Below are positions 8,956 through 32,999 of a stretch of DNA of 33,133 bases, in pieces. The stretch's first letter is position 1. Each line of letters opens with the position of its first letter. Below the pieces are notes generated by a model, which was not told the DNA's origin, ran no database searches, and worked only from the letters and a program-made list of their open reading frames with translations. A program made the position numbers and the translations under genes. The DNA is from Alphaproteobacteria bacterium (lineage in GTDB: Bacteria; Pseudomonadota; Alphaproteobacteria; Micavibrionales; Micavibrionaceae). The stretch spans positions 1-33,133 of the forward strand of contig JANQFU010000007.1 in NCBI GenBank assembly GCA_028277665.1, given 5' to 3'.

Positions 8956-9750
8956 ATGTCTTCATCACGCACCACTGGAATGAATTATTACGCCGTCGAG
9001 CACGGCAGCCTTTTGGAGCAAGCTCTACAGGCTTACGACACCAAAGCCGCCGCCTTCGCGGGAGATGCGCAAAGATTTGCAGAATATTACGGTGGACAAA
9101 GTGTTATTTATGATAGCTTTTGGCTCGATTACTCCCTTTGTGGATTTTTCTTCGAAAACCCGCAGAATGCTCATAAAGATTTTTGTATGGATAATTTCGG
9201 GCGTTTTCACCCGACAGACAAAGGAATAGACCTAACCCTCAGAGCGTCAAAGCTAGACAAATTAAGCGAATCTCTTAGTCAAAAACTCGGTGATCATATG
9301 CCAAATGGTATGTATCGTTGCCTTCGTTATGCAAAAATCGGGAACCTATATATTGTCGCCGTTCCGCCGAATGAGCCGGATGGCAGTGTCGCCCTCTTCC
9401 CCGATTCAAGACATTTGGGCAAAGAAGAACTTGCCACCCTGACAGGAGAGTTGAACGAGAAGGAACAGAAAGATTTTGACGCATTAAATGGCGCAAGGTG
9501 GACGCCTCCTGTTTTCAACGAGTCCATTTTCACGCCGTCAGAGAGGGTTCTGAGTATTCTTCACACATTGGAAGATATCAGATGGGGTAACGCATCTAGA
9601 CATCTATCTGTTTTGGGCCCAACCCTCCTTGCTATCCAATTTAATGACGCCTGCACGCGTGTAGCAAACACTTTGGAACGCTGGAAGAGCGTTGTTCTTG
9701 GCAGAACAACGGCAGGACCTCAAACACCTGGGGCGGGCCCGACAGGCTAA
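8956..9750 (+). CDS. Unrecognised soluble protein, 264 residues
   Basis: I do not recognise this family. The start is well supported: AGGAGAG lies 6 bases before ATG 8956 and a good promoter precedes it, so it is probably a stand-alone transcript. No signal peptide or membrane helix is evident. The N-terminal half is rich in aromatic residues (NYYAVEHG, YYGGQSVIYDSFWLDY, CGFFFENP), followed by charged helices and a Gly/Pro-rich end. Composition looks more A+T-rich than the flanking genes, especially from 9100 to 9350, which hints at acquisition. It faces the convergent gene at 9760 with only 9 bases between stops. Confidence 0.75.
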   Translation: MSSSRTTGMNYYAVEHGSLLEQALQAYDTKAAAFAGDAQRFAEYYGGQSVIYDSFWLDYSLCGFFFENPQNAHKDFCMDNFGRFHPTDKGIDLTLRASKLDKLSESLSQKLGDHMPNGMYRCLRYAKIGNLYIVAVPPNEPDGSVALFPDSRHLGKEELATLTGELNEKEQKDFDALNGARWTPPVFNESIFTPSERVLSILHTLEDIRWGNASRHLSVLGPTLLAIQFNDACTRVANTLERWKSVVLGRTTAGPQTPGAGPTG

Positions 9751-10352: not shown

Positions 10353-10784
10353 CTATCTCTTTGGAATCGCTTGGCGCGCCAGGTTATCCACATGCTCGTT
10401 CTCCGCATGCCCGGCATGGCCCTTCACCCATAAAAATTTAACGTCGTGGCGGGCGATGGCCGAATCGAGTCGCTCCCAGAGGTCGCGGTTCATGACCGGT
10501 TTTTTGCTCGCGGATGTCCAGCCGCGGGCTTTCCATCCGGCCAGCCATTCATGAACGCCTTTCTGGACGTATGTGCTGTCCGTATAGAGGGTGACCTTGC
10601 ACGGACGCTTCAAGGCCTCCAGCGCCGCGATGGCCGCCATCAGTTCCATCCGGTTGTTGGTCGTCTCGAGTTCGCCGCCGGAGAGGTCTTTTTCGTGAGA
10701 GCCGGTGCGCAGCAGGGCGCCCCATCCTCCCGGGCCGGGATTTCCGCTGCACGCGCCGTCTGTGTAGATCTCAACGTGGTCCAC
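10353..10784 (-). CDS. rnhA: Ribonuclease HI
   Basis: A 143-residue RNase HI that cuts RNA in RNA-DNA hybrids, removing primers and R-loops. The four metal-binding acids are present: D9 ([16 protein letters not shown]), E47 (NNRMELMAA), D69 (LYTDSTYV) and D133 (NEHVDNLAR), plus the flexible-loop His123 (WVKGHAGH). The start is GTG at 10784, supported by a GGGAGGGAGA purine run just upstream. It follows ispH by 39 bases. In many alphaproteobacteria thrB lies between these two genes; it is absent here. Confidence 0.95.
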
Positions 10785-10823
10785 TTTCTGCTCTCCCTCC
10801 CGGTCGGTGTCATCGTCTTTTAT

Positions 10824-11771
10824 TCAAACCCGCAGGACACGCGGGATATTAAAAATAACGTTCTCATCGGCGATGGGGACTTCGCGGACATCCACTTCGG
10901 CAAAGCGGTCTTTCAGCGCGTCAATGACCTCGTCGACGAGGATTTCCGGCGCGGAGGCCCCTGCCGTAATCCCCAGCGCCAAGAGGCCGTCAAACCATGT
11001 CCAATCGATATCCGCCGCTCTTTGAACCAGCATGGCTTTCGGGCAGCCATGCGCCTTTGCGACTTCGACAAGACGATTGGAATTCGAAGAATTCGGCGCG
11101 CCGATGACGATCAGGCCGTCGCATTGAGGCGCGATGGCCTTGACGGCGGCCTGACGGTTCGTCGTCGCGTAACAAATATCCTCTTTTACCGGACCTTCGA
11201 TCCCGGGATATTTCTCTTCCAGTGCGGTAACGACCGCCGCCGTGTCATCGACGGAGAGCGTCGTTTGAGAGCACCAGGCGAGTTTATCAGGGTTCGCAAC
11301 CTCCAGAGCCGCGACATCGGCGCAGGTTTCCACGAGCAAGGCCGCGCCGTCCGGAAGCTGGCCCATCGTGCCCTCGACTTCCGGGTGTCCGGCGTGACCG
11401 ATCAGGATGACCTGCCGTCCCTGCTCGTGATGGCGTTCGGCCTCACGATGCACTTTCCCGACGAGCGGACAGGTCGCGTCGATATAGAACATCTCCCGGC
11501 GTTCGGCTTCCTTTGGCACACGTTTTGGAACACCGTGGGCGGAGAAAATGACGGGGCGGCCGTCATCCGGGACTTCGTGAAGACTTTCGACGAAAACCGC
11601 CCCCTTGGCGCGCAGGCCTTCCACAACATATTTGTTATGCACGATTTCATGGCGGACATAGACCGGCGCGCCGTATTTTTCCAGTGCCTTTTCGACAATC
11701 TGGATCGCCCGGTCGACGCCTGCGCAAAATCCGCGCGGAGCGGCAAGATATACAATCAGCTCTTTGTTCAT
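10824..11771 (-). CDS. ispH: 4-hydroxy-3-methylbut-2-enyl diphosphate reductase
   Basis: A 315-residue iron-sulfur enzyme that makes IPP and DMAPP in the last step of the MEP isoprenoid pathway. The three cluster cysteines are C16 ([10 protein letters not shown]), C101 ([11 protein letters not shown]) and C200 ([10 protein letters not shown]). The catalytic Glu lies in [10 protein letters not shown] (about residue 133). ATG 11771 ([18 protein letters not shown]) fits family N-termini; the open frame extends 18 codons further but that segment is unlike IspH. First gene of an ispH-rnhA pair, divergent from the lipoprotein gene. Confidence 0.95.
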
Positions 11772-11905
11772 CACAGATGCCCGTATAAAGCAAAAAGGAC
11801 GTGTTGAAAACAGACAAGCGCACACAACTCCCTCTTGCCGAAACCGCCCGCCTTGTCTAACCTGCCGATGAGGACTTGACCCACAGCCGCGCGAGGATCA
11901 ACGAC

Positions 11906-13617: not shown

Positions 13618-14862
13618 CTAATCTTTCGGATCGATCAATTGCTGGAGAATTGCAAACGGGGAATCTTCCATTTTCTTCTGTGCTTCGGCCCGGATGATCC
13701 GCGGTTCGTCGCGGCGTTCGCGATCCTTTCCGTGTTTATGATGCGGTTTGCGGTCTTTTTCTTTTTTATGCTTATGCTTATGACCGTCCTTCGGTCCGTG
13801 ATGCGGTTTGGCGGAAGGGCCGTCTTTTCCGTCCTGTTTGCGCTCTTCGTTCGCGCGCGGCTTGCGGGGCGGGCGGTCTTTCTTCGCCTCCGGCACGGAC
13901 GCCGCAAACGCTTTGCCCCGCTTGAGCCGGAACCGTGCGAGTTTCGGACGCTCCGGAGACGCAGGCACAGCCGGATCTTCTGTCTTTTCTACAGAGTTAT
14001 CCACAGATTCTGTTTCGCCCTCTGTTTGGGTGTCCTGTTTCGGTTCTTCCGGTTTTTCCTCTTCCGGTTTCACGTCGTCGGCCGGATCGTGGATCTTCGT
14101 ATGTCCCATGGATTCGATGACCGCATAGAGATCCGCAATCGGACAGCCCAGCCATTCCGCCATTTTATGCTGGGCGTCAAATACGCCTTTTTCGGCAGAA
14201 TCGTAGATTGCCCCGATCAGACGATCGAGCATGTCCACGCGGATCGCCCGGCCGCCATAGACCGGATATCCGATCGAGCGGTAGAAATCGGGATTGATTT
14301 CGGCTTCTGCAGGAAGCTTGAGAGAAACCATTCCGTCCGGCGGTAATGGGGCCGGTAGCGGTTTATCGCGCCACAAGCTCCAGAGCAGGGCCCGTATATG
14401 GACCGCGGCCGGCTTGTTCAAAAGCGGCAAAAAGACGAGGACCGGCCCGAGACGGACTTTTCCGCGGCGCAGCGCAGCGCGGCCGGCTGGATCGAGTTCG
14501 GCGATGAGCTCTTCGATATCCTGGCGCAGGACGATCCCGAGGCTTTCGCAAATCCGCCAGGCCAGTGTTTTTGCCGGCGCAGGGGTCTCATCTGACGCAG
14601 CAACTTCCGCGAGGGTCTTCAGCGGCGCGAGAACTTCATCAATATGATGGCTCAGCCAGGTCTTGATTTTCAGCGTAACCTGATCGTGATCGAGTCCGTC
14701 CGGAACGGCTTCCGGAATCAGGGCAATCTCGGGAACGAAGAGCGCGCCGCCCTTCTTGACGCATGCGACGGGTATGCCCGGTGTCGGGTTCGTCCTGTCC
14801 TGTTGATAGGTAATCCGCCCGTCATCCGTTAAACGGAATTGTTTCGCCTCTGCCTCTAACAT
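13618..14862 (-). CDS. C-terminal half of an alphaproteobacterial helicase-like protein, lacking the helicase domain
   Basis: A 414-residue protein resembling the C-terminal region of the long alphaproteobacterial superfamily II (Suv3-like) helicase proteins. Shared features are an N-terminal FRLTDDGRITYQ segment, LAWRICESLGIVLR, the FLPLLNKPAAVHIRALLWSL block, and PDFYRSIGY followed by AIRVDMLDRL. Residues about 260-330 are acidic and Pro-rich; the tail from 330 is highly Lys/His/Arg-rich (for example HKHKHKKEKDRKPHHKHGKD), suited to nucleic-acid binding. No Walker A or DEAD box exists in the protein, and an in-frame TGA nine codons before ATG 14862 shows that the frame does not continue upstream. 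Either the helicase half was lost, it is encoded elsewhere, or this lineage has a split form. The basis is remembered family sequence patterns, not a search. Confidence 0.6.
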   Translation of the reverse strand: MLEAEAKQFRLTDDGRITYQQDRTNPTPGIPVACVKKGGALFVPEIALIPEAVPDGLDHDQVTLKIKTWLSHHIDEVLAPLKTLAEVAASDETPAPAKTLAWRICESLGIVLRQDIEELIAELDPAGRAALRRGKVRLGPVLVFLPLLNKPAAVHIRALLWSLWRDKPLPAPLPPDGMVSLKLPAEAEINPDFYRSIGYPVYGGRAIRVDMLDRLIGAIYDSAEKGVFDAQHKMAEWLGCPIADLYAVIESMGHTKIHDPADDVKPEEEKPEEPKQDTQTEGETESVDNSVEKTEDPAVPASPERPKLARFRLKRGKAFAASVPEAKKDRPPRKPRANEERKQDGKDGPSAKPHHGPKDGHKHKHKKEKDRKPHHKHGKDRERRDEPRIIRAEAQKKMEDSPFAILQQLIDPKD

Positions 14863-15031: not shown

Positions 15032-16552
15032 ATGCGGAAAGCCATGCCGAAATCCTTGCAGAACCTTCACATTCTTCTCCTCCTTGCCGTTCCGGCGCTT
15101 CTTCTGGCCGGAGCCGTTCTCGTTTTCAAATTCCTGCCGGGTGACGGCATGCCGGTGGAGCAACTGGAACAGGCCGCAAAACCTGCGCTGGGAGACGTCC
15201 CGCTCAAAGCCGAAATGCCGGAAGAGACCTACACAATCGACGATCTCGTGGCCTGTCTTGAAAACAGGCTGAATACCCTCAAACGCCAGGCCATGGACAA
15301 CGGTCTGAACCTGAAAACAAGCGGACGGATCGATGTCGAAGAGGCACAGACTTATTATGCCCTGACATTTCCGGAGATCACGCTTGAACACGCCGATGGA
15401 AATATCATCCATCTCGGCATTTTTGCCATGAATGTCAGCCCGGCGATGCCGGGGCGCACGGATCTGTGGCAATATACGCTGGCTCTGCCCGGGCTCATTC
15501 GCCTGACAGATACGCAGGGCCGGAAAACCGGACAAATTGAAATCGGGACACAGAACAATAGCGGGATCCTCGATATTGAAACCGAAGAGGTCCTGAGCCT
15601 GAAGAGCCGTCTCGGATCCATCCGCCTTGCAATCGCCGCGCAAAGCATCGGCGAGATCGTGACGACCTACGAAAAACGCCACGGACAGGGCGAAGACGGC
15701 AAGACCGATACGGAAGCAGAGCTGTCCATCGAGATAAAAGACCTGCTGCAAACGGGTCGGGGAGACGGGGCATATCGCCTTGAGCGTCTTCTCTTCACAA
15801 AAACGGACCGGCGCACAGCCTCCGGGACGGATACGGATTTGCAACTCGAGGTTCGGAATGCTTATAAAACAAAGACGTCCGGCCCTCCGGCCCCCCCTCT
15901 TCCGCAGGAGCGGATTCTCAATGCCGATATGGCGCTTTCCCTGAAAAATCCTGAGACGGACGAACCGGCGACGGCAAAAATGGAAGGCACGTTTTCCGGT
16001 CCGGCGGACTTAAATCTCGCGCTTGATCTGACCGGAATTCCGGTCGAGGAGTTTCGGGAGATCTTTCAGGAAACCGTCTCCGTTCTGACCGACAAAACCG
16101 TCAATCACAAACTCGGTCTGGCGCAGATCGGCATGCGTCTTCTGGGCGCGCTTGAAAAAGCCAACACAAAACTGACGGTTAACACGCTTGATTTTAAATC
16201 GCTTTCATGGGCTTTTGACGCAAACACCGCCCTGATGCTGGGGCGGATGCCGACCGGAAATCTGAACGTCCGGATCCGGGGGCTCGATTATCTGATCAAC
16301 ATGCAAAGCCGAAAGATTGCCGAGAAAGCGACCAATGGTGAAAGCATCACAACCGATCAGATTTTCCTGTCCGTTCTCGCCGCCTTGCGCCAGGTCGGCG
16401 CACAAAGCCCGGAAGATACGGATAAAATGTCCCTGATCTATAACCTGACACTGACGGAAGACGGACAGATTATCCTGAACGGCCAGTCCTCAGACTCCCT
16501 CGGCGAAATGCTCCTCAAAGACCCCGCCATCCTTACTTTGGGGACACAGTAA
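15032..16552 (+). CDS. Membrane-anchored exported protein of unknown function, 506 residues
   Basis: A 506-residue protein with one N-terminal hydrophobic segment (about 12-34, LLLLAVPALLLAGAVLVF) and a long, mostly beta-like periplasmic part. The second half alternates polar and hydrophobic residues, including SWAFDANTALMLGRMPTGNLNVRIRGLDYLI and a closing YNLTLTEDGQIILNGQ. This loosely recalls anchored families such as DUF945 or DUF2125, but I would not assign it to either. The start may be ATG 15032 or ATG 15044. It is divergent from the helicase-fragment gene across a 169-base gap in which I see no feature beyond likely promoters. Confidence 0.8.
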   Translation: MRKAMPKSLQNLHILLLLAVPALLLAGAVLVFKFLPGDGMPVEQLEQAAKPALGDVPLKAEMPEETYTIDDLVACLENRLNTLKRQAMDNGLNLKTSGRIDVEEAQTYYALTFPEITLEHADGNIIHLGIFAMNVSPAMPGRTDLWQYTLALPGLIRLTDTQGRKTGQIEIGTQNNSGILDIETEEVLSLKSRLGSIRLAIAAQSIGEIVTTYEKRHGQGEDGKTDTEAELSIEIKDLLQTGRGDGAYRLERLLFTKTDRRTASGTDTDLQLEVRNAYKTKTSGPPAPPLPQERILNADMALSLKNPETDEPATAKMEGTFSGPADLNLALDLTGIPVEEFREIFQETVSVLTDKTVNHKLGLAQIGMRLLGALEKANTKLTVNTLDFKSLSWAFDANTALMLGRMPTGNLNVRIRGLDYLINMQSRKIAEKATNGESITTDQIFLSVLAALRQVGAQSPEDTDKMSLIYNLTLTEDGQIILNGQSSDSLGEMLLKDPAILTLGTQ

Positions 16553-21238: not shown

Positions 21239-21251
21239 TATAATACCCGCA
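21239..21251 (+). promoter_or_regulatory. Promoter -10 element placing the hrcA transcript start at the ATG
   Basis: A perfect TATAAT (21239-21244) is followed by six bases and then the hrcA ATG. At standard spacing the first transcribed base is the A of the ATG, so the hrcA mRNA should be leaderless. No Shine-Dalgarno precedes the ATG. A -35 match is weak; TTTCGAGAC around 21212 might be a heat-shock-sigma -35. No CIRCE inverted repeat (TTAGCACTC-N9-GAGTGCTAA) is seen here or elsewhere in the window. Confidence 0.5.
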
Positions 21252-22309
21252 TGATCAGGCGAACGGACACACAGCAAGAGCGCGAAGACGAGGTCTTTTA
21301 TCGAGCTGCCGAGCATTTCTCAAGAACGGGGCGGCCGGCCGCGTCGAAGGATATTGCCGACCAGATGGGCCTGTCCTCCGCGACGGTCCGCAATATTTTT
21401 GCACGGCTCGAGGAACAGGAGCTGATCTGCAAACTTCATACATCCGGCGGGCGCGTTCTGACGTTAAAGGGTTTGCGGCGTTATGCCGGAAAGTTGCTTC
21501 AGGCCAGCCGCCTTGACGAGCGCACACGCGCGGAAATTGCCGGCAGATGGGAGCGCGGTGTCTCCCCCGAAGATATCCTCCAGACGGCCGGACAGATTCT
21601 GGCGGAGCTCTCGGCCTGCACGGCCCTCGTGATTTCGCCCAAACAGAGCAGGCCGCTCCAACAAATCCAGTTCGTCCGGATTGACGACGGCCAGACCCTT
21701 GTCGTGCTCATGTTCAAAGACGGCACATACGAAAACCGGATGACGGACACGCCGAAAGACCTGACACAGGACGATTTGACAAGGGCGGCAAATTACCTGA
21801 ACGCGAATCTTGAGAACAGCACGCTCGCGGAGCTTCGCGAACGCGTGACACAAGACCTCCGGGAGATCGAATCGGAATTTGGAGAGATCACCGCCGCCCT
21901 GATCGAAAAAGGCGTCCGGATTTCCCTGACCGACCTGCCTTTGGAAGACGGCGGACATCTGATCCTGCGCGGTCATGTGCATTTGCTCGACAACGCCAGG
22001 GTTCAGAAAGATATCGAAAATGCGCAGGCCTTGCTTGCCTATCTGGAAGAGCGGAAAAATACGGCCCGCATTCTTGAAAAAATTTCGCCCGGTGACGAAT
22101 TGCAGATCCTCGTCGGAACCGGAGAAGAGCATGATTCGGCGCCCGCCGGGTGTTCGCTCATCCTGGCGCCGTACAAAGGCCCGGGAGAGCGTCCTCTCGG
22201 CGTGGTCGGCGTCGTCGGCACGCATCCCCGGATTGACTACGGACGGGTGATCCCGATTATCAGTCACACATCGCAGATGATGTCAAAATGGGCCAAAGGC
22301 CCTCAGTAA
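21251..22309 (+). CDS. hrcA: Heat-inducible transcription repressor HrcA
   Basis: A 352-residue repressor that binds CIRCE operators, usually at groESL in alphaproteobacteria. The N-terminal winged HTH is visible ([29 protein letters not shown], about 36-64), followed by the HrcA dimerisation domain, and the C-terminal [36 protein letters not shown], which is diagnostic. Length is typical. The ATG lacks a ribosome binding site and follows directly on a promoter, suggesting a leaderless message. It heads an operon with the repeat protein (15-base gap) and grpE. Confidence 0.95.
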
Positions 22310-22324
22310 CAGGAACAATCAATC

Positions 22325-23425
22325 ATGAGGACGTCCCGACTACATCAACACCTTCCTGGCGCGGCCTTCGTCGGCCTGCTCGTTCTGGCTCTGGCCGTCT
22401 GTCATGTGAAGAGCGCCGCAGCGCAGGACGGAAACGTTCGCGTGACCCATCCGTCCTACAGGAGCACGTTATCCGGAGTTCAGCATCCTTCATATCATGA
22501 AACCGTGCAGGGCGTCGTTCATCCGTCCTACAGAAACACTCTGTCCGGGATTTCTCATCCCTCATACAGAAATTACGGGGACGCCCCACAGGCACAGAGG
22601 ATTCCCGGAGACACGCCACCGCCGGAGGATCGCGGCGAGCATGACGTCTCTGCCCCGCCATCATCCACGCCGCTTTTCATGCCAGAATATCTGGAGATAT
22701 CTCTTCAGACGCCTGCCCCTGAGGACTTGCAGGGTATAATACTGAATTTCAGTCTGCCGACGGGCGCCGCTCAATGTCGTCAACTCGGAGAGTTAATCCT
22801 GAGAAAATGGAAAAGCGCCCGTGAAACCCCCTACCTGAATATCACAGTAGACGGTTTTGTGGACAAAACCCCGCCGCCGCCTGCATGTCCAGCGTCATCC
22901 GCAGATCCGTCCGGCGGGCTCCTGATCACAAAAAAGGATCTTGAAGATATCACTCAAATCCATATTCATATCAGACACGCCATTGAGCGTTACAACATTT
23001 TCTTCGACGGCCGAAGTCTTTCAATTGAACCGGAAAATGCACTCAGGACAGGGCCGGAAACCGATTTACGCCGATCCGCTGCGGGAGAAGACAACAGCCC
23101 CTTTTTCCACTGGTTCTACCCGCCGAATACCGTTGTTCTGTTTGTACCGCAATCGCAAGGCCCCGTTCCGGAACAGGCTTTCAAAACAGCAGCTTTCTCT
23201 GCCAATCTGCGTCCTCTGGACATGGCTCTTCCCGGCTTTTCACAGCCGGCTTCCGGGATGCGCTATTACGCGGTTGATCCGTCCGGCCGTCTTGCAGCAA
23301 CAGATGCCCCCTCACAAGTCGGATTGATCCGGATTTCAGATACAAGGGCACAGGACCAGACAAAATTATACGGACAAAATAATGCCTGGGGACTTTACGC
23401 GCGCCCTCCTGCGCCCTATGAATAA
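22325..23425 (+). CDS. Exported protein with 12-residue HPSY repeats, inserted between hrcA and grpE
   Basis: 366 residues, not recognised. AGGAAC before ATG 22325 supports the start. A signal peptide is clear: a hydrophobic core GAAFVGLLVLALAVCHVKSAAA, probably cut before QDG; the Cys26 context (LAVC) is a poor lipobox. The mature N-terminus carries tandem 12-residue units beginning at H42, H54, H66 and H78 (HPSYRSTLSGVQ, HPSYHETVQGVV, HPSYRNTLSGIS, HPSYRNYG), then a Pro-rich linker and a domain of about 250 residues containing LTPxxP-like loops, ITKKDLEDITQIHIHIRHAI and a Tyr/Pro-rich end. The export signal is odd for an operon otherwise encoding cytosolic heat-shock factors. Position between hrcA and grpE predicts heat-responsive co-expression; function is unknown. 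Confidence 0.8.
   Translation: MRTSRLHQHLPGAAFVGLLVLALAVCHVKSAAAQDGNVRVTHPSYRSTLSGVQHPSYHETVQGVVHPSYRNTLSGISHPSYRNYGDAPQAQRIPGDTPPPEDRGEHDVSAPPSSTPLFMPEYLEISLQTPAPEDLQGIILNFSLPTGAAQCRQLGELILRKWKSARETPYLNITVDGFVDKTPPPPACPASSADPSGGLLITKKDLEDITQIHIHIRHAIERYNIFFDGRSLSIEPENALRTGPETDLRRSAAGEDNSPFFHWFYPPNTVVLFVPQSQGPVPEQAFKTAAFSANLRPLDMALPGFSQPASGMRYYAVDPSGRLAATDAPSQVGLIRISDTRAQDQTKLYGQNNAWGLYARPPAPYE
22448..22582 (+). repeat. 36-base in-frame tandem repeat encoding HPSY units
   Basis: Units start at 22448, 22484, 22520 and 22556, each opening with CATCC-TC-TA (HPSY). Units 1 and 3 are closest (CATCCGTCCTACAG in both); unit 2 has diverged most and unit 4 is partial. This pattern indicates internal duplication. 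Confidence 0.85.
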
Positions 23426-23467: not shown

Positions 23468-24130
23468 ATGCAGAATCATCAGCAGGAAAAAGCACAGCCA
23501 CAGCAGCAACCGGACGCGCCGGACGAAAACATAGAGCAGAATTCCGCCGCGCCGCAGGAGCCCCCTGCACCGGAACCGGAGCCGGAGCCGGAGCCCGCGC
23601 CCGCACCGGACGAACTTCAGGCGCTCCGCGATGAACTGGCCGCCGCGAAGGACCGGATGTTCCGCGCGCTGGCCGATGCCGAGAACACGCGCAAGCTGGC
23701 CGCCCGCGAGCGGGACGATGCGCGCAAATATGCGCTCTCCGGCTTTGCGCGGGACCTCCTCGACGTTGCGGATAATTTCCACCGGGCGATCGAGGCCATC
23801 CCGCCGGATCTCCTTGAATCGGACGCACGGATCAAAAATATCGTTGTCGGGATCGAGACCGTTGAAAAAGAAATGCTGAAAACATTCGGCAAGCACGGCA
23901 TTCAAAAAATCGAGCCGATGGATGAAATTTTCGATCCGAATTTCCACGAAGTCATGTTTGAAGCCCCCGTTCCCGGGAAACCTGCGGGAACGATCATCCA
24001 GCTTGTCGAGCCGGGCTATGTCATCAACGACCGCCTGCTCCGCCCGGCGCGCGTCGGTGTCGCCAAAGCGGACCCGAATGCGGAAAGCGGTCAACCGCCC
24101 AAATCCCCGCGACTGGACACGGAGGCGTAA
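23468..24130 (+). CDS. grpE: Nucleotide exchange factor GrpE
   Basis: A 220-residue co-chaperone that releases ADP from DnaK. The ATG has CAGGAG 5 bases upstream. The N-terminus is Gln/Pro-rich, with a short (Pro-Glu)n run around residues 36-46 encoded by CCGGAG hexamers, then the long dimerising coiled coil (about 50-95, LRDELAAAKDRMFRALADAENTRKLAARERD), and the beta domain ending FDPNFHEVMFEAPVPGKPAGTIIQLVEPGYVINDRLLRPARVGVA, diagnostic of GrpE. Last gene of the hrcA operon; convergent with argH. Confidence 0.95.
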   Translation: MQNHQQEKAQPQQQPDAPDENIEQNSAAPQEPPAPEPEPEPEPAPAPDELQALRDELAAAKDRMFRALADAENTRKLAARERDDARKYALSGFARDLLDVADNFHRAIEAIPPDLLESDARIKNIVVGIETVEKEMLKTFGKHGIQKIEPMDEIFDPNFHEVMFEAPVPGKPAGTIIQLVEPGYVINDRLLRPARVGVAKADPNAESGQPPKSPRLDTEA

Positions 24131-24273: not shown

Positions 24274-25662
24274 TCATAAAACGCCCCGGCTGCGCAACGC
24301 CGCCTTCGGATCAAGAACCGAATAAAGATCGTCTGTAATCCGCGGTTCGATCTCCTGCAGCGCCGCCAAATGCAAGGCATCCAGCGCGCATTTCCGCCCC
24401 CCGGCCTCGCCTCCCGCGTTCCCTTCCGCCAATCTCACAATCCGGCCGGTCACGTGATGCGCCTCCCGGAACGGCATATCAAGCTCCCGAACCAGCCAAT
24501 CGGCAATTTCCGTCGCCGTCGCATACCCATCCGCCGTTGCCTGATACATCCGGACGGAATCGAACGCCGCGCTCTCGATCATCCCCGCCATTGCATCCAG
24601 ACACAGACACAACGTATCAAAGCTCTCAAAGACCGCGGTTTTATCCTCCTGCATGTCCTTGTTATACGCCAGAGGAAGAGCCTTCATCACAGTCAGAAGC
24701 TGCACGAGATTTCCGTTCAGCCGCCCGGTTTTCGCCCGGACGAGCTCTGCCGCGTCAGGATTTTTCTTTTGCGGCATGATAGACGATCCCGTCGACCACG
24801 AATCGGAAAGCCGGACAAATCCGACATGCGGACTGGACCAGTAGACAATCTCCTCGGCAAGACGGGATAAATGCACCCCGCACTGCGCACAGGCGAACAA
24901 AAACTCGGTGGCAAAATCCCGCGCGGAAACCGCATCCATCGAATTGCGCATCGCCCCGGAAAAGCCAAGCTCCCGCGCCGTCCACTCCGGATCGGTCGGA
25001 AATCCCGTCCCGGACAAGGCGCACGCTCCCAGAGGAGAGAAATTATGCCGGGACGTACAATCCTCGAATCGGGAAGAATCCCGGGACAGCATCTCGGCAT
25101 AAGCCTCCAGATGCATCGCAAGCGTCACAGGCTGGGCGACCTGAAGATGCGTATAGCCCGGCATAACCGTGTCTTTATGCGCCTGCGCACATGTCGCGAA
25201 AACAGTCCGGCACGCGGAAATTTTCGTCACAAGGGTCTGGCAGGCTTCCCGAACCCAGAGACGAAAATCCGTCGCGACCTGATCGTTACGGGAACGCGCC
25301 GTATGGAGCTTCCCCGCAACATCTCCGATAAGATCTTTCAGCCGCCCCTCGATATTCATATGAATATCTTCAAGATCCGTGCGAAACTCAAAATGCCCGG
25401 CCTCAATCTCGGCCGTGACACGATCGAGCCCCGCCAGAATGGCCGCCCCGTCCTCCGCGCTCAAAATCTTCTGACGCGCCAGCATCCGGCAATGCGCCTT
25501 CGATCCGGCAATATCCTGCCGCCACAACCGGCAATCGACACCGATCGAGGCATTGATCTCGGTCATCAAATCCGCGGGGGCGGACTCAAAACGCCCGCCC
25601 CACATGCTGTTGCTGTCCTTCCGGACACCGCTTTCCTTTTCCGGTTGATCGGACATGCTCAT
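24274..25662 (-). CDS. argH: Argininosuccinate lyase
   Basis: 462 residues; splits argininosuccinate into arginine and fumarate, the last step of arginine synthesis. Visible: the opening [47 protein letters not shown] and the fumarase/lyase signature [12 protein letters not shown] with the catalytic Ser. The start overlaps the argG stop by ATGA, so the two are coupled. The N-terminus is about 18 residues longer than the conserved start; an internal Met at SNSMWGGRF could be used instead, but the overlap favours 25662. Confidence 0.96.
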
Positions 25663-26927
25663 GCTTGCGACTCCGTCTTTTCGTCATGATATTTCTTGCG
25701 AAGAGTCTGAAGGATCGCACTATGCGCCTTCAACCGGACGGCATTAATTTTGATAAAGCCGTCCGCATCGATCTGGTTGTATCCGCCTTCAATATCCATC
25801 GACGCAAGATCCTCGTCATAAAGAGACGTCGGCGACGTCCGGGCAATCGGATACGCGACCCCTTTATAGAGCTTCACCGTCACGGTGCCGTCAATATATT
25901 CCTGACTTTGCTTGACAGCCTTCATAAGAAAATCCATCTCCGGAGAGAACCAGAACCCGTTATAGATCAACTCGGAAATCTTGGTCGCCAGCATATCCCG
26001 CAACCGCATAACTTCGCGGTCCATCGCAATTCCTTCAAGATCCCGCAACGCATGAAACAGGATCGTCCCGCCAGGCGTCTCATAAACTCCCCGGGATTTA
26101 ATCCCGACAAACCGGTTTTCGACCATATCCAGCCGCCCGATTCCGTGCTTCGCACCCAGCGTATTCAAATACGCGAACAACGCCAGCGGATCGGTCTCTT
26201 CGCTCTGGTCATCCAGATTGACAACCTTGACCGGCATGCCATGATGAAAAGTCAGCGCAATGGTCTCCGGCTGGTCGGGCGCGGCTTCCGGAGCCACCGT
26301 CCGGGAATAAACGCTTTCCTCACAAACCTTCGCCGGATCTTCGAGAACCCCGGCTTCATGAGAAATGTGTAACAGGTTGTCATCCTCTGAATACGGCTTG
26401 GCCCGGCTGGCCGTCACGGGAATCTGATGCGTATCGGCGTAATCCAGCATATCCTGCCGCCCTTTGAACTGCGCAACAAATTCCGGCATTTTCCACGGAG
26501 CCAGAACCTTGATATCAGGCTTGAGAGCATAGTAGCTCAATTCAAACCGAACCTGATCGTTCCCCTTCCCGGTCGCGCCGTGAGAGACGAATCCGGCCCC
26601 TTCTTTCTCTGCAACCTCAATCTGGGCCCTGGCGATCAAAGGCCGCGCCAGCGACGTCCCGAGGAGATAACGTCCCTCATACATCGCATTGGCGGAATAC
26701 GCCGGATAAATATAATCCGTCACAAATTCCTTCTTGAGATCCGCGATATAGACATTCGACGCCCCGAGCTTCAGAGCCTTTTCCTTTGCCGCGGCAAAAT
26801 CCTCTTTCTGGCCGACATCGGCCATAAAGGCCACGACGTCATGGCCCTGCTCGATAAACCATTTCAAAATGACCGAGGTATCCAGTCCCCCTGAATAGGC
26901 CAGTACGATTTTTTGTTTCTCACTCAT
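25659..26927 (-). CDS. argG: Argininosuccinate synthase
   Basis: 422 residues; joins citrulline and aspartate with ATP. The PP-loop [11 protein letters not shown] (about 10-20) and the block [14 protein letters not shown] are visible, with further conserved segments [18 protein letters not shown] and [19 protein letters not shown] 4-8 bases before the ATG supports the start. First gene of argGH, behind a long leader containing an Arg-rich reading frame and a terminator hairpin, suggesting control by arginyl-tRNA supply. Confidence 0.96.
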
Positions 26928-26976: not shown

Positions 26977-27013
26977 ATAAAAATAGAGGCTCCTGATAAA
27001 TCAAAGAGCCTCT
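26977..27013 (-). terminator. Intrinsic terminator (attenuator) in the argG leader
   Basis: On the minus strand AGAGGCTC (27013-27006), a 13-base loop, then GAGCCTCT (26992-26985) form a perfect 8-base-pair stem followed at once by ATTTTTAT (26984-26977). The layout is that of a Rho-independent terminator. It lies 50 bases upstream of the argG ATG, so it would stop transcription before the gene rather than after one. Confidence 0.7.
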
Positions 27014-27035
27014 GCCATTTCTCTAAAGATCGCGT

Positions 27036-27167
27036 TCACGCCTGGCGTATCACGCACCTTCGATCAGCCGTCGGCCCGCATGTCATGCCACGGCGTCGCC
27101 GGGAAAACAGATTCCCGCCCGATACGTTCATCGTTTTGAATGTCCGATCAGAAACGATCGTCTTCAT
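27036..27167 (-). CDS. Arginine-rich leader peptide upstream of argG (putative attenuator peptide)
   Basis: Reading the minus strand from ATG 27167: a 43-codon frame ending in TGA (27038-27036), with GGAG about 11 bases upstream of the ATG. It includes four consecutive Arg codons CGG CGA CGC CGT (27101-27090) in NLFSRRRRGMT, then DRR and IRQA close to the stop: eight Arg in 43 residues. The stop is 22 bases before the terminator stem. An Arg-codon run, short peptide, terminator and arginine-synthesis gene in this order is the textbook form of ribosome-stalling attenuation. A second in-frame ATG at residue 13 is an alternative start. I have not folded the RNA, so the antiterminator is not demonstrated. 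Confidence 0.6.
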   Translation of the reverse strand: MKTIVSDRTFKTMNVSGGNLFSRRRRGMTCGPTADRRCVIRQA

Positions 27168-27221
27168 AACCGTTCTCGCTCCGCTTGACTGTTTCAATGC
27201 ACCAACGTTCCAGCTTCGATA

Positions 27222-27250
27222 CTCTCACCGCTTTCATAAGCTCATGTCAA
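27222..27250 (-). promoter_or_regulatory. Possible argG promoter upstream of the leader
   Basis: On the minus strand a perfect TTGACA (27250-27245) lies at the right place to start a leader of about 290 bases; the matching -10 region at 17-base spacing (TGAGAG) is poor. Position, more than sequence, supports it. Confidence 0.3.
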
Positions 27251-27443: not shown

Positions 27444-29393
27444 ATGAGCAAGATTATCGGTATTGACCTTGGGACGACAAACTCCTGTATCGCCGTGATG
27501 GACGGCAAGGAGCCCAAAATCATCGAAAACAGCGAAGGCGCACGAACGACTCCGTCGATGATCGCCTTTACAAAAGACGGCGAACGCCTCGTCGGCCAGC
27601 CGGCCAAACGTCAGGCCGTTACAAATCCGGATGCGACGCTGTTCGCGATCAAACGTTTGATCGGCCGCCGCTTCAAGGATGCCGAAGTTCAGGACATGAT
27701 CAAAAAAGCACCGTACAAAATCGTCGAGGGCGATAACGGTGACGCATGGGTCGAAGTGGACGGCGAAACCTACGCCCCGTCCCAGATCTCGGCCATGCTT
27801 TTACAGAAATTAAAAGAATATGCCGAAAGCTACCTCGGAACCCCCGTCGACAAAGCCGTCATCACGGTCCCGGCCTATTTTAACGACCAGCAACGCCAGG
27901 CCACAAAAGACGCCGGTAAAATCGCCGGGCTCGACGTCCTGCGGATCATTAACGAACCGACAGCCGCAGCCCTGTCCTATGGTCTGGACAAAAAGAAAAG
28001 CGGCATTATTGCCGTCTATGACCTTGGCGGCGGAACCTTCGATATTTCCGTGCTTGAAATCGGGGACGGCGTCTTCGAAGTGAAAGCCACGAACGGGGAT
28101 ACCTTCCTGGGCGGTGAAGACTTCGACCTGCGGATCATCGATTATCTCGCCGACGAATTCAAAAAAGAGAACGGGATCGACCTGCGCGACGACAAACTCG
28201 CGCTCCAGCGTCTGAAAGAGGCCGCGGAAAAAGCGAAGATCGAGTTGTCCAGCGCCACGCAAACGGACGTGAACCTGCCCTTTATCACGGCGGACGCCTC
28301 CGGCCCGAAACACCTGAACATCAAACTGACCCGCGCGAAGCTCGAGTCCATCGTCGAAGACCTGATCAAAAACACGATCATCCCGGTCAAGGCGGCCCTG
28401 AAAGACGCAGGCGTGAAAGCCTCCGACATTGACGAGGTCGTGCTGGTCGGCGGGATGACCCGCATGCCGAAAATCATTGAAACGGTGAAAGACTTTTTCG
28501 GGCGCGACCCGCACAAAGGCGTGAACCCGGACGAGGTCGTTGCAAACGGCGCCGCCATTCAGGGCGGAGTCCTGCAGGGCGACGTGAAAGACGTTCTCCT
28601 TCTGGACGTCACCCCGCTTTCTCTGGGGATTGAAACCCTCGGCGGCGTCTTCACACGCCTGATCGACCGGAACACGACGATCCCGACCAAAAAGTCCCAG
28701 ACCTTCTCAACGGCGGAAGACAACCAGAACGCCGTGACGATCCGGGTCTTTCAGGGTGAAAGGGAAATGGCCGCGGACAACAAGATGCTCGGCCAGTTCG
28801 ATCTGGTCGGGATTCCCCCTGCCCCGCGCGGCGTCCCGCAAGTCGAGGTCACGTTCGACATTGACGCGAACGGGATCGTTCACGTCTCTGCCAAAGACAA
28901 AGCCAGCGGCAAAGAGCAGAAAATCCGCATTCAGGCCGCCGGCGGCCTTTCCGACGCGGATATCGAGCAAATGGTCAAGGACGCGGAAAGCAACGCGGAC
29001 GCCGACAAAAAACGCCGTGAGCTGGCCGAAGCCCGCAATCAGGCCGAAACAATGATCCACTCCACGGAGAACGCGATCAAGGATCTCGGCGACAAAGTCC
29101 CGGCCGATGAAAAACAGGCCGCAGAATCCGCAATCGCCGATCTGAAATCCGCGCTGGACGGCGAGGACAAGGACGCGATTGAGGAAAAAACGCAGGCCCT
29201 GATGCAGGCGAGCATGAAAATCGGCGAAATGGCGTATCGTCAGGCACAGGAAGACGACACGGACGAAGCCGCGCAGCCGGAAGCCGCCGAAGAAGAAACG
29301 TCCTCGTCATCTTCCCGCAAACAGCATGCCGACGCCGACGATGATGTGGTGGACGCCGACTTCACCGAAGTCGATGACAACGGAAAAAAATAA
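27444..29393 (+). CDS. dnaK: Molecular chaperone DnaK (Hsp70)
   Basis: 649 residues from ATG 27444, with AAAGGAG about 10 bases upstream. The ATPase domain begins [20 protein letters not shown] and has [32 protein letters not shown] and [12 protein letters not shown]. The substrate domain has [19 protein letters not shown] and [15 protein letters not shown]. The C-terminus is an acidic and Ser-rich tail ending [19 protein letters not shown], the usual DnaK end. It should work with DnaJ and GrpE, both encoded nearby. Unusually, dnaJ does not follow directly: a palindromic repeat and three other genes intervene. Confidence 0.98.
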
Positions 29394-30767: not shown

Positions 30768-31958
30768 ATGGCAGACGGCATGAAGAAAGACTTTTACGAA
30801 CTTCTGGGCGTTCAGAAAAACGCGGATGCAGCCGAGATCAAGAAAGCATACCGCAAGCTCGCGATGAAATATCACCCGGACCAGAACCCGGACGATCCGG
30901 ACGCCGAAATGCGCCTGAAAGAAATCAACGAAGCCTACGACGTCCTGAAAGATCCTCAAAAACGCGCGGCTTACGACCGGTTCGGCGCGGCCGCGTTCGA
31001 CGGCTCCATGGGCGGCGGCCCCGGGGGCCCCGGAGGAATGGGTGGAATGGGCGGCATGGGCGGTGCCAGTGCCTTCTCCGACATTTTCGAAGACATGTTC
31101 GGCGAGTTTATGGGCGGCATGGGCGGCGGCGGCGCGCGGCGCAGAAGCTCCGGTCCGGTGCGCGGCGCGGACATGCAGTACACAATGGATATCTCTCTTG
31201 AAGATGCCTATATCGGAAAAGAGACGACGATCAAAATCCCGACGATGGAAACCTGTAGCGCCTGCAACGGATCCGGGGCCGAGCCGGGCACGAGCGCAGA
31301 GACCTGTCCGACCTGCCACGGCACAGGACGCATGCGCATGCAACAAGGCTTTTTCACGATTGAGCGCACCTGCTCGACCTGTAACGGCGAAGGCCGGATC
31401 ATGCGCGATCCATGTAAAAAATGCGGCGGCGCAGGCCGGATCCGCAAGGAAAAGACGCTCAAAGTCCGGATTCCCGCCGGTGTGGAAAGCGGCCGCCGCA
31501 TTCGTCTGGCCGGCGAAGGCGAAGCGGGCCTGCGCGGCGGGAGCCACGGAGATCTATACGTCCTGCTCAACATCCGTCCGCATAAACTTTTCCGGCGGGA
31601 CGGCGCGGATCTCCATTGCCGGGTCCCGATCCCGATGACGCGCGCCGCACTCGGCGGCAAAATCGACGTGCCCACCATCGACGGCAAAAAGATCCAGCTC
31701 ACAATCCCGGAAGGCACGCAAAACGGACAAAAATTCAGGATCAAGGACAAAGGGATGCCGATCCTGCGCTCCGACGCGCGTGGAAACCTCTATATCGAGG
31801 CTGCAATCGAAATTCCGGTCAATCTGAACAAGAAGCAAAAAGAACTGCTCAAACAGCTCGATCAAAGCACAGGCGGCTCTGCAGCAGGCAGGCACAGCCC
31901 GGAATCCAGCGGATTTTTCTCCAAGGTCAAAGATTTGTGGGATGATTTGAGCAGTTAG
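30768..31958 (+). CDS. dnaJ: Chaperone protein DnaJ (Hsp40)
   Basis: 396 residues. The J domain (about 6-75) has the HPD motif ([10 protein letters not shown]), then a Gly/Met/Phe-rich linker with GGM repeats (about 80-125), four CxxCxGxG zinc motifs ([32 protein letters not shown]), and the two C-terminal beta domains ([37 protein letters not shown]). It stimulates DnaK ATPase and delivers clients. ATG 30768 lies 3 bases after the hepT stop and has only AGGA at 30751-30754, so translation may depend on coupling to hepT; ATG 30780 ([10 protein letters not shown]) is an alternative. Confidence 0.97.
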
Positions 31959-32001
31959 GTTAAGATCACAACACAAAAACAGAAACGCGGAGACATGCGC
32001 C

Positions 32002-32910
32002 ATGGAAAACGAACAGAACACAACGGGAAACAGCCAAAGACTTAAACTCGGCGTTCTGGGCGTTCAGGGCCGGGTCTCCCAGCTCATCGTCCGCGAAATC
32101 AGACAACACCCCGAGCATCCCGATTTTATCCTGCAAGGCGCGACGGTCGCGCCCGGATCGCCCGCCGCCGGACAGGATATTTCCGGATTGTGCGGCCTCC
32201 CCCCCTTCGGCCTGCGCGCGACAGACGACGTCGAAACCGTTTTCAACGCCTGCGACGTCCTGATCGATTTCACACTGCCCGATGCAACGATGAACCACAT
32301 CGCACTCGCCGGCCGGACGGGCAAAGCGCTGGTTATCGGCACGACAGGCCTGACCGAAGATCACGAGAACGCCTTGATGGAAGCCGGAAAAACGGCAACA
32401 ATCGTCCGCGCCCCCAATATGTCGGTCGGCGTAAACCTTCTGATGGCACTGGTTAAAAAAGCGGCTGCGGCCCTCGGCCCGGAATTCGACATCGAGATTT
32501 TTGAATCCCACCACCGGAACAAAATTGACGCCCCTTCCGGAACCGCCCTCGCCCTCGGACAAGCCGCAGCAGCTGGACGGAATGTTGATCTCAACGAACA
32601 AGCTGCCTGGGCGCGGCACGGCAATACGGGTCGCCGTGAAACCGGAACGATCGGCTTTTCGGTGCAACGCGGCGGCGACATCGTCGGCGAACACACCGCC
32701 AGTTTTCTGGGAACGGGAGAACGTCTGGAACTCACACACCGCGCCACTGACCGGGCCCTGTTCGCAAGAGGGGCCCTCCACGCCGCAAAATGGGCCGCGG
32801 CCTGCCCCGACAACGGCCTGTTTTCCATGCAGGATGTGATTGAAATACGGCAATCGCCTGAGGTTATGAATACCAAAGTCGTAAAAATGCAACCCATTGA
32901 AAAACAATGA
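32002..32910 (+). CDS. dapB: 4-hydroxy-tetrahydrodipicolinate reductase
   Basis: 302 residues, slightly longer than E. coli DapB because of an extended N-terminus. It reduces hydroxytetrahydrodipicolinate in the lysine/diaminopimelate pathway. Visible: the nucleotide loop LGVLGVQGRVSQ, VLIDFTLPDATMNH, VIGTTGLTEDH, APNMSVGVNLLMAL and the signature ESHHRNKIDAPSGTALALG. GCGGAGA precedes ATG 32002. dnaJ-dapB adjacency is common in alphaproteobacteria. A palindromic repeat follows the stop. Confidence 0.95.
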   Translation: MENEQNTTGNSQRLKLGVLGVQGRVSQLIVREIRQHPEHPDFILQGATVAPGSPAAGQDISGLCGLPPFGLRATDDVETVFNACDVLIDFTLPDATMNHIALAGRTGKALVIGTTGLTEDHENALMEAGKTATIVRAPNMSVGVNLLMALVKKAAAALGPEFDIEIFESHHRNKIDAPSGTALALGQAAAAGRNVDLNEQAAWARHGNTGRRETGTIGFSVQRGGDIVGEHTASFLGTGERLELTHRATDRALFARGALHAAKWAAACPDNGLFSMQDVIEIRQSPEVMNTKVVKMQPIEKQ

Positions 32911-32912
32911 AA

Positions 32913-32999
32913 TCGTCATCCTCTGCGAAGGCAGAGGATCCATTTCGAAGCCCGCGCCGACGGATAAATGGATCCTCCGAACAAGTCGGAGGATGACGG
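32913..32999. repeat. REP-like palindrome, copy E, downstream of dapB
   Basis: CGTCATCCTCTGCGAAGGCA then GAGGATCCATTT, and the mirror AAATGGATCCTCCGAACAAG then TCGGAGGATGACG, form two hairpins within a larger inverted repeat. It has the same GTCATCC ... GGATCC/GGATGAC layout as copies A, B and D with a different stem sequence and no CGCAGAG outer arms. Likely a terminator-capable repeat. Confidence 0.75.

Follow-up and report, generated by a model that had tools for sequence, protein, structure and literature searches.

Arginine-codon leader peptides as candidate regulators of arginine synthesis genes in an order of Alphaproteobacteria

The locus described here raises the question of whether argGH is controlled by a leader peptide that senses arginine. 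Bacterial arginine synthesis is commonly portrayed as being under repressor control, with ArgR providing feedback on the arg genes. The locus lies in a stretch of 33,133 nucleotides (the window) from an uncultured member of the Micavibrionaceae related to the predator Micavibrio, and an earlier reading made without database searches, the sequence-only reading, had proposed a putative attenuator before argGH. Comparison with related genomes suggests that bacteria of this lineage probably sense arginine through the speed of the ribosome over a run of Arg codons. The best reading of the window's branch is a variant with a longer leader and a terminator, within an order-specific Arg leader-peptide system.

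The 43-codon frame claimed before argG, with four different consecutive Arg codons and eight Arg in total, proved exact on the sequence, as did the perfect 8-bp stem and T-run just upstream of the gene (Table 1). The predicted peptide is MKTIVSDRTFKTMNVSGGNLFSRRRRGMTCGPTADRRCVIRQA (43 aa), and its GMT directly after the four-Arg run resembles the RR-MTA of relatives. The terminator begins 22 bases past the leader stop and lies about 50 bases upstream of argG. Its arms are AGAGGCTC (27013-27006) and GAGCCTCT (26992-26985), after which ATTTTT runs to 26979. The hairpin has a free energy of -15.9 kcal/mol, and its 13-nt loop caused it to be overlooked by a mechanical terminator scan with a loop limit of 3-8. 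No minus-strand gene ends between dnaK and argG and, since dnaK is divergent, the terminator serves no neighbouring gene. The leader RNA would be expected to start near 27214. We also observed that argGH sits within a heat-shock cluster of hrcA, grpE, dnaK, and dnaJ (21251-22309, 23468-24130, 27444-29393, 30768-31958). Several large ORFs of the window had no Pfam match (8956-9750, 10446-11807, 13618-14862, 15032-16552, 22325-23425, and 31966-32943), some of which may be in the wrong frame.

Table 1. Features of the argGH locus in the window, and predicted Arg-run leaders of relatives
Feature	Position	Strand	Detail	Basis
Leader ORF	27167-27036	minus	ATG 27167, stop TGA 27038-27036; 43 codons, 8 Arg	translation; syntenic Arg-run leaders in relatives
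Alternative in-frame starts of leader ORF	ATG 27131, TTG 27197	minus		translation
Arg run	27101-27090	minus	CGG CGA CGC CGT	sequence; relatives
Second Arg pair	27057..27062	minus	CGA AGG	sequence
Additional Arg codon	27047-27045	minus	CGC	sequence
Intrinsic terminator	27013-26979	minus	8-bp perfect stem, loop, ATTTTT	sequence; similar terminator at the same place in G020
Candidate -35 box, argG leader transcript	27245..27250	minus	TTGACA	consensus only; G020 also has TTGACA upstream of its own leader
Candidate -10 box, weak	27221..27226	minus	GAGAGT, 18-nt spacer	inferred from sequence
argG	25659..26927	minus	argininosuccinate synthase, putative controlled gene	TIGR00032 and NF001770 above cut-off
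argH	24274..25662	minus	argininosuccinate lyase, overlaps argG end	TIGR00838 above cut-off
dnaK	27444..29393	plus	divergent neighbour	sequence, gene models
Stand-alone argG leader, G065			SIRRRRMTALRLLLT; core SIRRRRMTAL	
Stand-alone argG leader, G061			SIRRRRITALR	
Stand-alone argG leader, G008			ARRRRDDRRITASRGVGPCV; also quoted as ARRRRDDRRITAS	
Stand-alone argG leader, G009			SRRRTRRMTASLTWLAA; core SRRRTRRMTAS	
Stand-alone argG leader, G092			RSIRRSRRSRALCSGCCAFLL	
Stand-alone argG leader, G020			KTQRRRLFRTG; terminator also present	
Leader before argF-argG, G068			MQKTAPLLRRRTR	
Leader before argF-argG, G047 (another family)			MNTQIFTSPANIRRARRMTAPRLWWAA; also quoted as NIRRARRMTAPRLWWAA	
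Cluster-head leader, G029			MHKNGQNILNRRRRLS	
Cluster-head leader, G124			MATLMTLISLRRRTR	
Leader before argCBDFG, G066			LPRRRRT	
Cluster-head leader, G119			MNNFVASPSRRRPR	

The chance expectation of these features was estimated with shuffled sequences. When the argG-dnaK intergenic region was dinucleotide-shuffled 2000 times, 11 shuffles (0.55%) contained a perfect stem of 8 bp or more with a T-run. The Arg run by itself is weak evidence because shuffling the 350-nt upstream region 5000 times gave a four-Arg run in a short ORF 142 times (2.8%), and 50 of the 1312 350-nt segments of the window (3.8%) contain one. If independent, the run and the terminator would be expected jointly about once in 6000 cases. 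The window features alone are suggestive.

We therefore relied on relatives, comparing the regions upstream of argG in the window's family and order, with argF-argG loci set apart, and then the regions upstream of the first gene of each arg cluster. Short Arg-run frames precede argG or the first arg-cluster gene in at least 34 genomes of about 17 genera and two families, and a similar tiny gene stands before arg genes in at least 33 genomes related to the window's. Their usual endings are RRRTR, RRRPR, or RRRRx. Besides the examples in Table 1, a leader before the head of an arg cluster was found in G028, G117, G120, G087, and G025, and G065 has two leaders, one before argG and one before argC. 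On the ArgG tree, leaders occur in each of the family's two major branches as well as in the second family; arg loci that have no leader also exist within the family. One frame, MTMYNTRRRLS before argD in G005, was rejected as probably due to chance, as it overlaps the preceding gene and as the leader of G005 lies farther upstream. Five genomes (G007, G034, G059, G060, and G085; L028, L029, L143, L144) have only a divergent ArgG-like protein with about 30% identity to the window's. The Arg codons are conserved in relatives, a point on which the sequence-only reading would have been refuted had they not been, and these conserved leaders strongly support its idea of an Arg-codon leader controlling arginine synthesis genes. 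Beyond what it claimed is a lineage-wide system of predicted leader ORFs, most of them leaderless.

Enrichment was then measured. An RRR run in a short ORF was present at 12 of 25 cluster starts, compared to a shuffle mean of 1.2 and maximum of 5, and no other amino acid exceeded 2 for such runs at these starts. RRRR was present in 4 of 40 stand-alone argG regions (shuffle mean 0.18, maximum 2). Since the loci had been partly inspected before the enrichment test, a pattern search provided a cleaner check. The pattern consisted of TTGACA, 29-31 nt, ATG, 9-39 nt, and codons for Arg-Arg-Arg-x-Arg, and it was run on 104 genomes of the family. It gave 27 matches, compared to 3 for the reversed pattern. 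Twenty-one of the 27 were short Arg leaders ending in RRRPR, RRRTR, or RRRSR or containing RRRRR, and the other six were not Arg leaders. A candidate in G032 beside a contig end belonged to a longer protein and was discarded. Nineteen of the 21 leaders stand directly before arg-cluster genes, 16 of them before an unnamed gene and 3 before argC. The remaining two precede a gene followed by argD and an acetyltransferase-like gene, respectively. A search of 385 genomes of the class with an exact 16-mer motif gave five matches, none of which proved to be an Arg leader in front of an arg gene; among the matches listed, those to the reversed pattern were more numerous and the result was regarded as noise. 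In 60 argG upstream regions of the class outside the order, no comparable leaders were found, and scattered RRR occurred at about the rate of AAA.

The unnamed gene, of about 350 aa (L245:3249-4292; N terminus like MKKVELDKISSVTKNL, DKISSVTKNL), heads many arg clusters, where it lies between the Arg leader and argCBD. Homologues are present in L244, L246-L249, L272-L275, and L278-L291. In Pfam it had only a sub-threshold match to DUF1611, and it may belong to the arginine pathway without having been recognised as such. ArgJ was sought in 11 genomes, none of them among those shown to carry the unnamed gene, and was missing in 10.

The usual arginine feedback operates through the ArgR regulon, whereas here ArgR (PF01316) was not detected in 11 genomes including the window's, in a search that was positive in 9 of 14 control genomes. 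Caulobacter also had no ArgR in this search. This agrees with the ArgR-independent solution that the sequence-only reading had raised. Searching the window against Rfam for a T-box or riboswitch gave no family match at the gathering score. These two results count against a chance ORF with argG under ArgR, a T-box, or a riboswitch, as do the enrichment and synteny of Arg leaders in the order. GC-rich frames do yield Arg runs by chance, and RRR was present in 8 of 59 class-wide regions, but this already disfavoured explanation seems very improbable.

The leaders of relatives share an architecture. Of 19 leaders, 17 have a TTGACA-like box 36 +/-1 nt ahead of their ATG, compared to 16% of ATGs in the same regions, and in eight leaders the box is a perfect TTGACA at exactly -36. 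A -35-like box at this distance would place the RNA start at the leader ATG itself, so that the leader RNA of relatives should begin with a leaderless ORF. A segment 3' of the Arg codons, mostly beginning 9-21 nt past the second Arg codon, has a pairing partner located about 50-110 nt ahead of the first gene, with some outliers farther away. The best contiguous helix exceeded that of shuffles with a combined P of 2.7e-7 over 19 leaders, and with P 7e-4 for 13 leaders found later. When nine leaders were aligned across genera, an 11-bp helix was 92.9% paired with 6 of 11 pairs changed on both sides, and sliding it by 1-3 columns cut pairing to 17-46%. The helix, close behind the Arg codons, shows covariation between genera.

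Other potential structures were observed near the first gene. In L278, L279, L281, L282, L286, L247, L244, and L249, a conserved CTTG(A/C)A block that could form a small hairpin, followed by AATTGCATTGTG, sits within columns 126-160 of alignment A1, past the distal helix arm and ahead of the first gene. This block may act as an RNA element or as a second promoter. Within the last 100 nt before argG, GACCTGTTCC in L033 and GACCTGTTCT in L039 can pair around the argG ribosome-binding site (GGAAGCAGGTC and AGAAAGCAGGTC, respectively), with a matching change between the two species, which suggests possible control of translation start in that genus. The distal helix arm of G029 (L168:1724-1900), TCAGCAGTCA, can also base-pair with the beginning of the first gene, ATGACTGCT, which hints at a putative switch on translation start.

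Like these relatives, the window has a short ORF with an Arg run at this place ahead of the first arg gene, and its GMT resembles their RR-MTA. Neither of its ATGs is preceded at 36 nt by TTGACA, which G020 also lacks at that position, and the relatives' helix was not significant in the window (p 0.76). G020, which is on the same branch of the ArgG tree, shares the Arg run and intrinsic terminator with the window. The only close relatives with a terminator are G020 and NORP145. The latter, which falls on this branch too and has a similar terminator, was not counted as a third copy of the arrangement since its terminator follows a frame of about 140 codons (L049:1476-1902), which resembles a pentapeptide-repeat protein and ends in LRRGRPKTYALRKLT just before the terminator and argG. 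We looked for an Arg leader upstream of the window genome's own argF and did not find one.

The window was also compared to the classical attenuator. Its leader ORF is rich in pathway codons (43 codons, 8 Arg, run of 4), and in relatives the regulatory codons are conserved ahead of genes of this pathway. The window and G020 have an intrinsic terminator between the leader and argG, but a convincing one was absent in most relatives. A mutually exclusive antiterminator was not found in the window, where no pairing in a duplex search (p 0.41) and no contiguous helix (p 0.76) was better than in shuffles, nor was one found in the G020 leader; the comparison covered one genome of the window's genus. 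The putative argGH attenuator is supported as an Arg leader, on the strength of the relatives. A classical two-fold switch in the window is not supported, and most relatives do without its intrinsic terminator.

It is likely that the argGH transcript opens with an Arg-codon leader ORF that senses charged Arg-tRNA, as a terminator-type variant. The leader ORF would come first in the transcript, and its Arg codon run would gauge charged Arg-tRNA. With ample arginine, the ribosome would reach the leader stop, the terminator 22 nt downstream would form, and most transcription would end before argG. Under a shortage of charged Arg-tRNA, the ribosome would stall on the Arg codons, the leader RNA would fold or be paced differently, and RNA polymerase would enter argGH. 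Leader translation, termination in vivo, and the sign of the response in the window are inferred from sequence, and so is the step from stalled ribosome to read-through, since no antiterminator was found in the window or G020. In most relatives, the RNA would start at the leader ATG and the segment after the Arg codons would pair with the segment before the first gene. The post-Arg segment would be covered by a ribosome that has reached the stop codon and left free by one stalled on Arg.

Another possible explanation is translation-coupled or Rho-type control, in which the Arg-paced ribosome would govern Rho access or leader RNA stability and the hairpin would be secondary. Most relatives lack an intrinsic terminator between leader and first gene, and Salmonella speF orf34 provides a precedent with two Arg codons that act with Rho and RNase G (PMC6386406), but the good intrinsic terminators of the window and G020 make this rather unlikely here. 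The window leader could also be a decayed remnant: Arg-leader control would exist in the order, but in this genome only a constitutive promoter and an incidental partial terminator would be left. The window does lack the leaderless geometry, the helix, and an antiterminator, and a four-Arg run in a short ORF has a local chance of 3-4%. However, the Arg run is at the expected place, the terminator has no other gene to serve, and both features recur together in G020, the nearest comparable relative. We consider a remnant unlikely and retain the terminator-type leader as our reading of the window.

On balance, we favor the view that in one order, the Micavibrionales, Arg-codon leaders, mostly leaderless and moving with the cluster-head gene, replaced repressor control. 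The outputs would differ by branch, with a terminator in the window's branch and a long-range helix with no terminator in others. If true, arginine would join the amino acids sensed by leader peptides, and these genomes would form a natural series with a single sensor coupled to several outputs. Arg leaders also flag arg-cluster genes, including the conserved unnamed first gene.

Our search of openly readable papers turned up no Arg-codon attenuator acting on arginine synthesis. A survey of Actinobacteria described trp, leuS, ilv, and cys leaders and no such RNA structure for arginine, naming T-boxes for arginine elsewhere (PMC1262725), and arginine is unmentioned in a survey of premature terminators (PMC2965389). 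The proteobacterial trp, his, leu, ilv, thr, and phe operons, with their ribosome-mediated attenuators, have in common with the present leaders a short ORF with a run of codons for the pathway product, and the window shares their intrinsic terminator between leader and first gene. In contrast to them, arginine would be sensed here, the window has no detected antiterminator, and most relatives have a covarying helix and no terminator. Arg codons of a leader peptide sense arginine, as proposed here, in Salmonella speF orf34 (PMC6386406) and Staphylococcus aureus rbfL (PMC13009471), but these control polyamine synthesis and a biofilm regulator, respectively, with two Arg codons, no long runs, and other mechanisms. 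The leaderless trpL of Sinorhizobium meliloti (PMC10117765) senses Trp and not Arg, and the window leader does not have its geometry; this alphaproteobacterial leader ORF at the RNA 5' end does match the geometry predicted for most Arg leaders. The cysS uORFC-8-2 motif of Rhodobacterales (PMC8632094) differs in its Cys codons, its tRNA synthetase gene, and its order, but it is, like the window, an alphaproteobacterial candidate attenuator that combines tandem regulatory codons with a terminator.
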